Shown here: piece by piece, positions 1,302 through 17,294 of the stretch
How the letters are laid out: each line of letters opens with the position of its first letter
Numbering within the stretch: the stretch's first letter is position 1
Assembly (NCBI RefSeq): GCF_000336915.1
Contig: NZ_AOMD01000019.1
Location: 1-32,392 of the forward strand
Length of the DNA: 32,392 nucleotides
Source of the DNA: Halococcus saccharolyticus DSM 5350
Lineage (GTDB): Archaea; Halobacteriota; Halobacteria; Halobacteriales; Halococcaceae
Direction: 5' to 3'
Notes under the pieces: model-generated
What the model was told of the DNA's origin: nothing
Database searches by the model: none
Seen by the model: only the letters and a program-made list of their open reading frames with translations
Made by a program: the position numbers and the translations under genes

Positions 1302-2342
1302 ATGCAAGCAGCCAGGCTCCACGAGTACACCGAGGAGATGGACGACGCGCTCTCGATCGACGACGTCGACGCGCCACAGGTGAGCCAGGCCGACCACGTG
1401 GTCGTCGACGTCGAGGGCGCAGGCTGGTGTCAGACGGACAACCACGTCATCGAGGGGATGTGGGAGCAGTACATGCCCCAGGACCTCCCGATGACCCTCG
1501 GCCACGAGAACGCCGGCACGGTAGTCGAGGTCGGCGACGGCGTCTCGGTCGTTGAGGAGGGCGATCAGGTGATTTGCCACCCGGTGATGACCTGCGGAAC
1601 CTGCCGGCCCTGCCGGCTCGGCGAGGACATGTACTGCGAGAACGTCGCCTTCCCGGGGCTCTCGACCGACGGGGGGTTCGCCGAGTCGCTGCTCACGAAC
1701 GAGCGCGCCGTGATCCCGTTGCCCGACGGCGTCGACACGACCGACATCGCTCCCCACGCCGACGCTGGTATCACGGCCTACCACGCGGTGAAAAAGGCCG
1801 CTCGCGAGCTGAACCCAGGCGATCACGCGGTCGTCGTCGGTATCGGCGGACTCGGTCACATCGGGCTCCAGTGTCTCGACGCGATGAGCGCCGCCAGCAT
1901 CACCGCGGTCGATCTCAAGGACAGCGCGCTCGATCTGGCGACCGATCTCGGGGCGCACCACACCGTGAACCCCGACTCGACGGACGTCGCGAGCGAGATC
2001 GAATCGATCACCGACAGTGTCGGCGCACAGCAAGTGCTCGATTTCGTCGGCAGTGACGCGACCACCGCACTCGCGCCCGACGTCGTCGCGGCCGGCGGCG
2101 ACCACCACGTCGTCGGCTACGGCGGTCACGTCCACGAGCCTGCTCAGGCGCTCGTCAACGGCGAATTCAGCTACCGTGGCACGCTCGTCGGCCAGTACAC
2201 CGAGCTTCAGGAGCTCGTCGCACTGGTCGAACGCGGCGACGTCGATCTCCGGACCTCGCGGTACGGACTCGACGAGATCAACGACGTCGCCGCGAAGCTC
2301 GAGCACGGCGAGATCGAAGGGCGGGCCGTTATCACGCCCTGA
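1302..2342 (+). CDS. Zinc-dependent alcohol dehydrogenase (MDR family)
   Basis: A 346-residue medium-chain dehydrogenase/reductase. Catalytic-zinc residues are visible as C43 (GAGWCQTD) and H68-E69 (GHE). The structural-zinc cysteines are C98, C101, C104 and C112 in CGTCRPCRLGEDMYC. The nucleotide-binding fold carries GIGGLGHIG. The family oxidises alcohols or reduces aldehydes/ketones with NAD(P); the exact substrate is not evident. I used the ATG at 1302 because MQAARLHEY is the usual MDR beginning; the eleven codons before it look non-coding. Divergent placement 158 bp from an amidohydrolase and a MIP18-like gene recalls bacterial propane monooxygenase loci, where an alcohol dehydrogenase handles the 2-propanol. 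That substrate assignment is inference. Confidence 0.9.
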   Translation: MQAARLHEYTEEMDDALSIDDVDAPQVSQADHVVVDVEGAGWCQTDNHVIEGMWEQYMPQDLPMTLGHENAGTVVEVGDGVSVVEEGDQVICHPVMTCGTCRPCRLGEDMYCENVAFPGLSTDGGFAESLLTNERAVIPLPDGVDTTDIAPHADAGITAYHAVKKAARELNPGDHAVVVGIGGLGHIGLQCLDAMSAASITAVDLKDSALDLATDLGAHHTVNPDSTDVASEIESITDSVGAQQVLDFVGSDATTALAPDVVAAGGDHHVVGYGGHVHEPAQALVNGEFSYRGTLVGQYTELQELVALVERGDVDLRTSRYGLDEINDVAAKLEHGEIEGRAVITP

Positions 2343-2680
2343 AAGCCCTCGGAACTGCGCGGGCCATCGGCCCGCGCATCCGGCCTCACTGCGTTCGGCC
2401 GGACGCCTGGCGGCGGTTCCTCGCCCTTTTCATGTCCACCGGGAGAGCGAAGCTCTCCCGAGCCCTGCCTCACTTCGTTCGGCAGGACACCAGGACAGCA
2501 TTGCGCGACCCGCGCTGTCGCGCGGGCACGCGCTGAAGCCCCCGTCCCTCCCCGTGCGGCCGCGATAAACGCGGCCGCGTGGCTTCCTGACGCACCACTA
2601 CCGCCACCGCAACCGCTCCGCTACCGCCACCACACAGCGACCGCCAGCGCCGCCGCGCGATCTAGGAACGGGCAGCGAGG
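2343..2680. repeat. Intergenic hairpin array between convergent genes, with C-rich tail
   Basis: This 338-bp spacer contains no credible gene. It holds successive inverted repeats: 2357-2377 (9-bp stem, loop ATC), 2380-2402 (6-bp stem around TCACTGCGTTC), 2440-2460 (9-bp stem, loop GAA), 2464-2486 (6-bp stem around TCACTTCGTTC) and 2556-2578 (8-bp stem, loop GATAAAC). After them comes a C-rich stretch built of CCGCCACC/CCGCTACC units (about 2590-2650). The same composition recurs at 19003-19307, also between two convergent genes. Possible roles are bidirectional termination, RNA stabilisation, or being a non-autonomous palindromic repeat. The stems are directly visible; the function is inference. 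Confidence 0.75.
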
Positions 2681-3922
2681 TCAGATACCGAGGATCAGCG
2701 GCCCCATCAACACGCCCATCAAATGAACGCGCCGCGCGCGGAACTTCGCGGGGATCAGGCCGATCAGCGCGCTCGCACAAAACGCACCCACGCCGATCGG
2801 TCCGGCGAATAAGAACGCGAGTCCGAGCAGGAGACAGAGAACACCGATCGAGAGATGGGTGTACTCGACCCGTCCGACTGTCCGGAGATACCGGTCGCCG
2901 ACCCACGGCACCAGCACGAACCCGACGCCCGCCGCGAGGGCAACGCCCGAGAGCAGTAGGGGCAAATCGAGTGGCACATCCGTCGATTCGAGGGCAACTA
3001 GCACCCCGGTCCGGGGTGAACCAAGCGCGACAAGCGCGAACAACGCGAAAATCGTGTTACTTGTGTTGACACCGCTTGTCGCGACCAGAAAGCCACGTGC
3101 GCCGTCGTCCTCGGGTACTGCGGGCAGCGTCACCGTCGCCGCGACCGCTGCCGACACCCCTGGGAGATAGCCCACGATCGCGCCCGAGGCCGTCCCGACG
3201 ATCGCCGTCAACCCCACCGTGCGCCGCGGCGTCGTGACGGCGGCATCGGCCTGTTCGGGCACCCCGGCTCCGTCGAGTGCTTCGATGAGGACGGGTGCTC
3301 CAAATAGCCCCGCGAACAACGGCATCAGCATCCCGCCGGCGGCTAGCGGCGCGCTCGGCTCGATGTCGAGCGTGAGCCACCCGAGCCCCGCACTCAGGAG
3401 AAACGCGGCTGCACCCCCGATCCGCGCGACGTTCGACCGCTCGGTGACGACGAGGAAGACCGCGACGCCGCCCAAGACGAGCGGCAGATGCGCCCGTACC
3501 GTCGGATACACTGATACCATCAGTCGCGTCATCGGGATCGCGAGCGGCACCGCGAACGCGACCGCCAGCCCGCTCCCAAGCGCCGACAGGCGGAGCGCCT
3601 CCCGGCCGCGACCCTCGATTACCAGTCGATGGCCTGGCAGCGCCGAGGCCGCCATCGCGGCGTCGGGTACCCCGAGTGCGAGTGCCGGAACCACGTCGAG
3701 GAACGTGTGCGTCACGCCAGCAGCGAGCATTGCCGCCCCGACGTAGAGCGCCGGTCCCGGAACCTGCGGGGCGGCTGCCGCCAACAGCAGCGCGAAGTTG
3801 TTGGCGTGGAGTCCGGGCACGAGGCCGCTCACCGTTCCGAGTGCGATCCCACCGAGGACGAACCCGAGCGCCGGGAGTGCGGTTTCGGGCGCGACCACGA
3901 CGCTCCCGCCGAACGGACCCAT
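2681..3922 (-). CDS. TctA/DUF112-type membrane permease
   Basis: A 413-residue, very hydrophobic protein with roughly ten predicted membrane segments. It shows two related motifs typical of the TctA fold: GLVPGLHANNFALLL near residues 33-47 and GYLPGVSAA in the second half, each followed by an Asn/Thr-rich re-entrant-like stretch (TSGVNTSNTIFAL). In bacteria TctA is the large subunit of tripartite tricarboxylate transporters. Archaea commonly carry it alone, and no TctB or TctC homologue is present here either, so the substrate and energy coupling are unknown. It ends facing the alcohol dehydrogenase across the hairpin array. The start at 3922 gives a short N-terminal tail before the first membrane segment; no better alternative is evident. 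Confidence 0.78.
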   Translation of the reverse strand: MGPFGGSVVVAPETALPALGFVLGGIALGTVSGLVPGLHANNFALLLAAAAPQVPGPALYVGAAMLAAGVTHTFLDVVPALALGVPDAAMAASALPGHRLVIEGRGREALRLSALGSGLAVAFAVPLAIPMTRLMVSVYPTVRAHLPLVLGGVAVFLVVTERSNVARIGGAAAFLLSAGLGWLTLDIEPSAPLAAGGMLMPLFAGLFGAPVLIEALDGAGVPEQADAAVTTPRRTVGLTAIVGTASGAIVGYLPGVSAAVAATVTLPAVPEDDGARGFLVATSGVNTSNTIFALFALVALGSPRTGVLVALESTDVPLDLPLLLSGVALAAGVGFVLVPWVGDRYLRTVGRVEYTHLSIGVLCLLLGLAFLFAGPIGVGAFCASALIGLIPAKFRARRVHLMGVLMGPLILGI

Positions 3923-3978
3923 TCACCCCGCGGTGGCTGCGTCCCGGTATGTAAACGCTCGCACGGCTATCGGGTCGG

Positions 3979-4008
3979 TGAAAGAAAAGTGTGGGTCGAA
4001 CTGACCGC
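3979..4008 (-). terminator. Terminator after the L12 gene
   Basis: Just past the L12 stop, the minus strand has a small stem (GGTC-AGTTC-GACC, 3994-4006) followed by the T-rich tract TTTTCTTT (about 3981-3989). Archaeal termination mainly needs the T-tract; the weak stem may be incidental. It would end the L1-L10-L12 transcript before the TctA-like gene. Confidence 0.5.
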
Positions 4009-4011
4009 CGT

Positions 4012-4362
4012 TCAGCCGAAGAGTTCGCCGAGACCCTCGCCGCCAGCGTCGTCGTCCTCGTCGTCGTCCGCTTCGGCTTCCTCGGCTTCCTCTTCCTCGG
4101 CTTCGTCGGCCTCGTCGGCGTCGGCCTCGCCGCCAGCCCCGCCGGCTGCTGCGCCGCCCGCACCGCCAGCGCCGCCTGCGGGCACCGCGGCGGCCTGGTC
4201 GACCGCTTCCTCGATGTCGACGTCTTCGAGCGCCGCGACGAGCGCCTTCACACGCGACTCCTCGACGTCCGCACCGGCCGCGTCGAGCACGTCGGTCAGG
4301 TTGTCTTCGTTGATCTCTTCGTCCGTCTCGTTCAGGATGAGTGCTGCGTAAACGTATTCCAT
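4012..4362 (-). CDS. rpl12: 50S ribosomal protein L12 (P1, stalk protein)
   Basis: A 116-residue archaeal P1/L12. The first 60 residues ([12 protein letters not shown]... through [11 protein letters not shown]) form the helical dimerisation domain that docks on L10. A Gly/Ala-rich hinge (residues about 61-80) follows, then an extremely acidic Glu/Asp run ending in GLGELFG. That conserved tail contacts translation factors such as aEF2, and L10 ends in nearly the same sequence (GLGEMFG). The gene is last in the L1-L10-L12 operon, 42 bases after L10, in the standard haloarchaeal order. A T-rich tract follows the stop. Confidence 0.97.
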
Positions 4363-16967: not shown

Positions 16968-17052
16968 GCGCGGGTAGCCAAGCCAGGCCAACGGCGCAGC
17001 GCTTAGGACGCTGTCCTGTAGAGGTCCGCCGGTTCAAATCCGGTCCCGCGCA
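16968..17052 (+). tRNA. tRNA-Leu (anticodon UAG)
   Basis: An 85-base class II tRNA. The acceptor arms GCGCGGG (16968-16974) and CCCGCGC (17045-17051) pair perfectly, with discriminator A at 17052 and no encoded CCA. The anticodon stem CAGCG/CGCTG encloses loop CTTAGGA, reading anticodon TAG, for CUA leucine codons. The long variable arm (TCCTGTAGAGGTCCG region) and T arm CCGGTTCAAATCCGG are intact. No intron is seen. Two copies of its 3' end follow downstream. Confidence 0.96.
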
Positions 17053-17290
17053 TCGAGCGAACGAAGTGAGCGAGAGCAGGCACGGACTTGAACTCTATCA
17101 CGAGCGAGCGGAGCGAGCGAAGTGATTCCGGTTCGAATCCGGTCCCGCGCAGTGAGTGGAGTGAGCGTAGCGAACGGAACGAGCGAGCAGGAGCGATTGG
17201 AACCCTGCAAGTCACAGCCCGCACAGGCGAGCGAAGCGAGCCGAGCAGGACTGTCTTGCCCCGGTTCGAATCCGGTCCCGCGCATCCACT
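17053..17290 (+). repeat. Duplicated tRNA 3' ends with palindromic spacers
   Basis: Two extra 24-base copies of the T-arm/acceptor end, CCGGTTCGAATCCGGTCCCG plus CGCA, lie at 17128-17151 and 17261-17284. The tRNA's own copy (17029-17052) differs at one base (TTCAAAT against TTCGAAT). Spacers of 75 and 109 bp contain GAGCGAACGAAGTGAGCGAG and GCGAGCGAAGCGAGC palindromes. No integrase or other gene fits. The copies look like residual attachment sites or a repeat amplified at the tRNA end. Short reading frames here that translate as RGTGFEP are artefacts of the tRNA end. Confidence 0.85.
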
Positions 17291-17294
17291 TTTT
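17290..17294 (+). terminator. T-tract terminator after the last tRNA-end copy
   Basis: TTTTT follows the third copy of the tRNA 3' end by five bases. No such tract follows the functional tRNA itself, so the native terminator appears to have been pushed about 230 bp downstream. Confidence 0.55.

Follow-up and report, generated by a model that had tools for sequence, protein, structure and literature searches.

A gene-free hairpin unit ending in a copied tRNA 3' end, a candidate insertion cassette behind haloarchaeal tRNA genes

Two units behind tRNA-Leu(TAG) and their relatives in the genome

Behind the tRNA-Leu(TAG) gene of Halococcus saccharolyticus DSM 5350 lie two units that contain no genes and each terminate in a copy of the tRNA 3' end. 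Similar units occur in most haloarchaeal genomes, at up to about 26 places in each, and would be new in either of two ways, as a minimal mobile element or as a class of tRNA-trailer RNA. From the comparison of sequences we tentatively favor the former, i.e., a haloarchaea-wide non-coding insertion cassette that is specific for tRNA 3' ends, which are classic landing sites for mobile DNA.

The window, that is, the whole stretch of 32,392 nucleotides that was analyzed, contains the locus detailed in Table 1. An initial annotation had reported that the terminal 24 bases of the tRNA recur twice, at steps of 99 and 133 bp, and this proved correct. Both extra copies are identical to the tRNA at 23/24 positions, the sole change being TTCAAAT to TTCGAAT, and TTTTT is found only after the last copy (17290–17294), with no run of four or more Ts in 17053–17289. 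The runner-up match to the 24-mer in the entire window, on both strands, reaches just 16/24, and the repeat is therefore not due to chance. An ordinary tandem repeat was also ruled out, as the spacers are unlike in sequence and alike in structure. A covariance model built from 28 hairpins matched unit 1 at 17081–17142 (E 1e-7) and unit 2 at 17191–17275 (E 1e-15), and the type of centre present in unit 2 was also found at tRNA-Leu in other families (L095, L102). Considered alone, the two units in the window have unexceptional folding energies (z −0.6 and −1.3). The core genes flanking tRNA-Leu(TAG) are those for a MOSC protein, the diadenylate cyclase DacZ (dacZ), and an MscS mechanosensitive channel, and no integrase gene was found among the flanking genes tested.

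Table 1. Features of the tRNA-Leu(TAG) locus in the window
Feature	Position	Strand	Remark
tRNA-Leu(TAG) gene	16968..17052	+	master copy of the recurring 3' end at 17029-17052
Unit 1, 99 bp, adjoins the tRNA	17053..17151	+	not present in sister species G002
Hairpin A within unit 1	17053..17075	+	apex motif GA-AC..GT-GA
Inverted T-arm, unit 1	17083..17094	+	pairing partner is the copy at 17128-17140
Copy 2 of the tRNA 3' end	17128..17151	+	
Unit 2, 133 bp	17152..17284	+	also in G002, 95% identity
Inverted T-arm, unit 2	17193..17205	+	
Hairpin B centre, unit 2	17207..17259	+	GCAAG-T-CACAGC ... GACTGT-CTTGC
Copy 3 of the tRNA 3' end	17261..17284	+	
Displaced trailer with TTTTT	17285..17294	+	TCCACTTTTTGC also directly 3' of the unit-free paralogue tRNA-Leu(GAG)

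When the tRNA loci of this genome were taken one by one, similar tails were found at about one quarter of the tRNA genes. At least 13 units of 99–168 bp, one or two at each gene, lie behind 12 tRNA genes: Leu-TAG (two units), Ile, Tyr, Phe, Asn, Ser-TGA, Ser-GGA, Arg-CCT, Arg-TCT, Lys-TTT, Val-GAC, and the intron-bearing Trp. A related form that involves only the acceptor is present at Ala-CGC, Ala-GGC, and His. The covariance model returned 13 matches at E<1e-3 in the genome, all 13 behind tRNA genes.

A second repeated module, CCACCTTTTGCTGCGCTC...GCTGGCAAAATCTGG.CCAAAAGCC, follows the last copy at many Halococcus tRNA genes (L002, L009, L019, L028, L029 (G000), L085, L090, L093); it resembles a hairpin of the terminator type and appears to have spread as well. 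A 17.9-kb contig (L050, G000:C3), possibly viral or plasmid, carries a cluster of divergent tRNA-Tyr, His, and Gln genes.

Anatomy, copied block, and distribution of the units

Each spacer in the window contains an inverted T-arm, the pairing partner of the copied tRNA end, and the unit therefore forms two hairpins, A (short) and B (long). It begins directly after tRNA base 73 with hairpin A, followed by hairpin B and the copy of the host tRNA, which starts at about the T-loop and stops at base 73. The 5' arm of hairpin B is the inverted T-arm, and the hairpin ends in the tRNA copy; between them come, in order, an unpaired spacer, the inner stem, a T-T mismatch, a CRCAG motif, a variable end loop, the other side of the inner stem, and a spacer before the T-arm. 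Units are mostly 101–182 bp long (median 127) and form arrays of at most five, and the sequence AGTCRCAGC is present in 132 of the 207 units.

The fold is supported by covariation. The inner stem varies in a compensatory way (one pair, for example, is G-C in 68 units and C-G in 50), and the covariation score of 0.272 is twice the value for shuffled sequences (0.126) and at least five times that for slid ones (0.02–0.05). The outer arms contain 188 G-U pairs against 56 A-C pairs, and of the 26 differing isoacceptors 25 have this excess; this favors the tRNA-sense strand, in the form of RNA or of single-stranded DNA, as the folding one. No strand bias is evident in the inner (L) stem, with 12 G-U and 12 A-C pairs. 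A K-turn or k-loop at the apex of the hairpin was considered and dropped, because the bases that should be unpaired covary in the sequences as A-U or G-C pairs.

Two loci depart from this plan. In a tRNA-Phe unit (L151, 1500–1665), the centre is inverted between its two arms, an arrangement that suggests DNA inversion at the T-arm repeats. At a tRNA-Ser(TGA) gene (L150, 1560–2760), 1.2 kb with a 279-aa open frame separate the first copy from a second copy with half a hairpin; this stretch is possibly a unit with cargo.

The copied block is specific to its host. Over positions 57–73, its identity to its own tRNA is 0.84–0.99, while at variable positions its identity to other tRNAs is 0.27–0.53; thus about 30 isoacceptors have each had their own tail copied. 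Identity is at background by positions 49–51 and near background at 74, and because positions 52–56 are universal bases, the left edge can be placed just between 52 and 57. The centres of the units are common to different isoacceptors, as for 134 of the 207 the best match in another genome lies at another isoacceptor. The remaining 73 best matches join the same isoacceptor, against 14 expected, an excess which points to much vertical descent.

At a cut-off of E<=1e-5, the covariance model found matches in 283 of 292 haloarchaeal genomes (97%), representing 73 of 77 genera. Hosts identified by name include Halococcus, Haloarcula, Halorubrum, Natrinema, Natronomonas, Halorussus, and Halobacterium. 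Across sampled genomes of the phylum, the model matched 22 of about 24 haloarchaea, at most 26 times in any one genome, and did not match any of about 124 non-haloarchaeal genomes. In the named genomes, 99 of the 109 strong matches lie no more than 900 bp behind a tRNA on the same strand. The other 10 are mostly at locus edges or at intron-containing tRNAs, and at least two are orphans (L182, L195). One array, behind a tRNA-Phe (L369, G168), has five units, of which three are nearly identical and occur in alternation.

Turnover and competing explanations

The arrangement at tRNA-Leu(TAG) is not fixed among the relatives, which have anywhere from 0 to 3–4 units there. In G002, exactly the 99 bp of unit 1 are missing while unit 2 is kept. 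Among congeners, comparison of all the tRNAs of the genomes G000, G002, and G003 showed sites that are exactly empty, with their flanks conserved, at Leu-GAG, Ser-CGA, Asp, Arg-CCG, and Leu-TAG. The units in these three genomes number 0, 1, and 2, respectively, at both Ser-CGA and Leu-GAG, 0, 1, and 0 at Asp, and 0, 1, and 1 at Arg-CCG. These sites back the part of the initial annotation that had proposed insertion at the tRNA end and a repeat unit, although all of them could be losses. In arrays with at least two units, the copy proximal to the tRNA is the closer one to it in sequence in 26 of 46 cases and the distal copy in 3, which fits entry of units beside the tRNA; gene conversion with the tRNA could produce the same gradient. 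Two alanine tRNAs of one genome carry a common unit at 98% (L177, L186).

The main rival to an insertion cassette is a functional RNA. The units would then be an ancestral structured element of tRNA precursors, acting in 3' processing, in termination, or as a small RNA, whose copy number rose through unequal crossing-over, with losses when copies recombined and exchange through gene conversion. We hold this to be possible, if somewhat doubtful. Covariation, the predominance of G-U over A-C pairs when the arms are read on the tRNA-sense strand, and the presence of units in nearly all genomes would suit such an RNA, as would the isoacceptor-specific similarity of units and the identical tandem units of G003 and G168. 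T-runs, moreover, are concentrated past the last copy, at 6.4 per kb compared with 1.7 per kb (none inside the array here), an excess that also bears out the earlier suggestion of a terminator displaced downstream. Less easily reconciled with an RNA function are the lack of strand bias in the inner stem, the inverted centre of the tRNA-Phe unit, the 9 genomes with no match, and the fact that the tRNAs bearing units differ even among congeners. A known RNA family was rejected, as Rfam holds no family for the unit and returned nothing but tRNA even at E<=1.

Serial integration and excision of tyrosine-integrase elements, which the initial annotation had offered as a source of the repeats, would leave the units as scars at the tRNA, and we consider this improbable. 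A partial copy of a tRNA 3' end does lie downstream of an intact tRNA, and the copied block is of the usual kind, since tRNA attachment blocks usually span the T-loop to the 3' end. At one locus (L253, ~2010–4040), a 2-kb element that separates tRNA-Lys(CTT) from an older hairpin unit encodes a 343-aa protein whose sequence suggests a tyrosine integrase, and partial tRNAs beside full copies are known from Haloferax gibbonsii (PMC7921747). However, all the units are gene-free and share one covarying structure, and in 20 relatives no distant copy bounding an insert was found at tRNA-Leu(TAG). The attP of the halovirus HSTV-2 at tRNA-Leu, the one virus group examined, is a plain match of about 40 bases beside a XerC/D-type gene and does not contain the unit hairpin. 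A dosage effect of integrases, counted as the general family PF00589, was likewise rejected: G020 has 26 units with 1 integrase match and G209 has 0 units with 13. Because the two numbers are unrelated, scars of integrated elements explain the units poorly. Carriage by viruses was also rejected, as the unit patterns had no exact match in 2.9 million viral contigs, and in phages and plasmids the matches were limited to the T-arm or to generic palindromes.

A Cas1- or transposase-like insertion with a long target duplication, in which the tRNA would be the analogue of a CRISPR leader, appears very unlikely to us. It would account for the host-specific copies at about 30 isoacceptors and for the apparent youth of the tRNA-proximal copies, and the Aciduliprofundum casposase recognizes a T-loop-like target motif, TCAAATC, at the 3' end of tRNA-Pro (PMC6614799). 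The 14–15 bp duplication made by that enzyme, however, starts downstream of the motif (PMC6614799), whereas the copy in our units includes the T-loop itself, and the units do not have the terminal inverted repeats of casposons.

Since each host has its own tail copied and the centres are common to different isoacceptors, we favor insertion with duplication of the region from the T-loop to the 3' end, or recombination there, guided by folded arms. A new cassette would enter beside the tRNA and duplicate about 17–22 bp of its host, or, alternatively, would enter by recombination at the T-loop. The recombination site would be the fold of inverted arm and T-arm on the tRNA-sense strand, with an anatomy comparable to that of an integron attC or of the CTX phage attP hairpin. 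Cassettes would be lost by recombination between direct copies, and transcription behind the tRNA probably covers the entire array as far as the displaced T-run. Several observations speak against a cassette: unit numbers are unrelated to integrase numbers, the patterns are missing from the viral contigs, best matches join the same isoacceptor more often than expected, the inner stem has no strand bias, and the two units in the window have ordinary folding energies. More speculatively, and with distinctly less confidence, the units could be minimal selfish cassettes of the whole class that recognize the tRNA through a folded complement of the T-arm, duplicate its tail on entry, and build tRNA-led arrays, being analogous to integrons or CRISPR arrays and of separate origin.

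Relation to known systems

Whatever their origin, the units would account for some of the partial tRNAs listed as remnants in genome papers. They are also a source of false tRNA calls and can inflate tRNA counts, as in the case of a tRNA-Ala called by ARAGORN within the units behind a tRNA-Pro (L154, 1368–1461). In the open-licence literature, the scope of our search, we came across no account of the unit, of how it folds, or of how widely it is spread. Haloarchaeal elements integrated at tRNAs have been described (PMC8371274, PMC3119063), and in Haloferax gibbonsii LR2-5 the main text treats the partial tRNAs as remnants (PMC7921747); the structure of the unit, its class-wide spread, and its covariation are not described in that main text.

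The attachment duplications of integrative elements, such as those with XerC/D-type halovirus integrases, likewise place a direct repeat of the 3' part of the tRNA behind an intact tRNA gene. The units differ from them in being 100–180 bp long, gene-free, and built around a conserved double hairpin, and in forming arrays at many tRNAs per genome. Casposons and CRISPR arrays resemble the units in that the target is duplicated on insertion, in the targeting of a tRNA 3' end, and in an apparent polarity beside a leader. The duplication in the units, however, is longer than that of casposons, covers approximately positions 53–73, and includes the T-loop motif, instead of being 14–15 bp downstream of TCAAATC, and the inserts, unlike those of casposons and CRISPR, are alike and structured; no element bearing cas1 was noticed.

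The integron attC and the hairpin attP of CTX phage consist of outer arms, an unpaired spacer, inner arms, and a variable end, and fold from one strand. The likeness of the unit to them, an imperfect hairpin in which unpaired spacers accompany an outer and an inner pair of arms, is anatomical only. Its core is GTTCRAATC and not the GTTRRRY and RYYYAAC boxes, and since the integron core-box consensus is not matched, the units are not classed as integrons. They also differ from integrons in having no cassette genes and in having a tRNA gene as the target.
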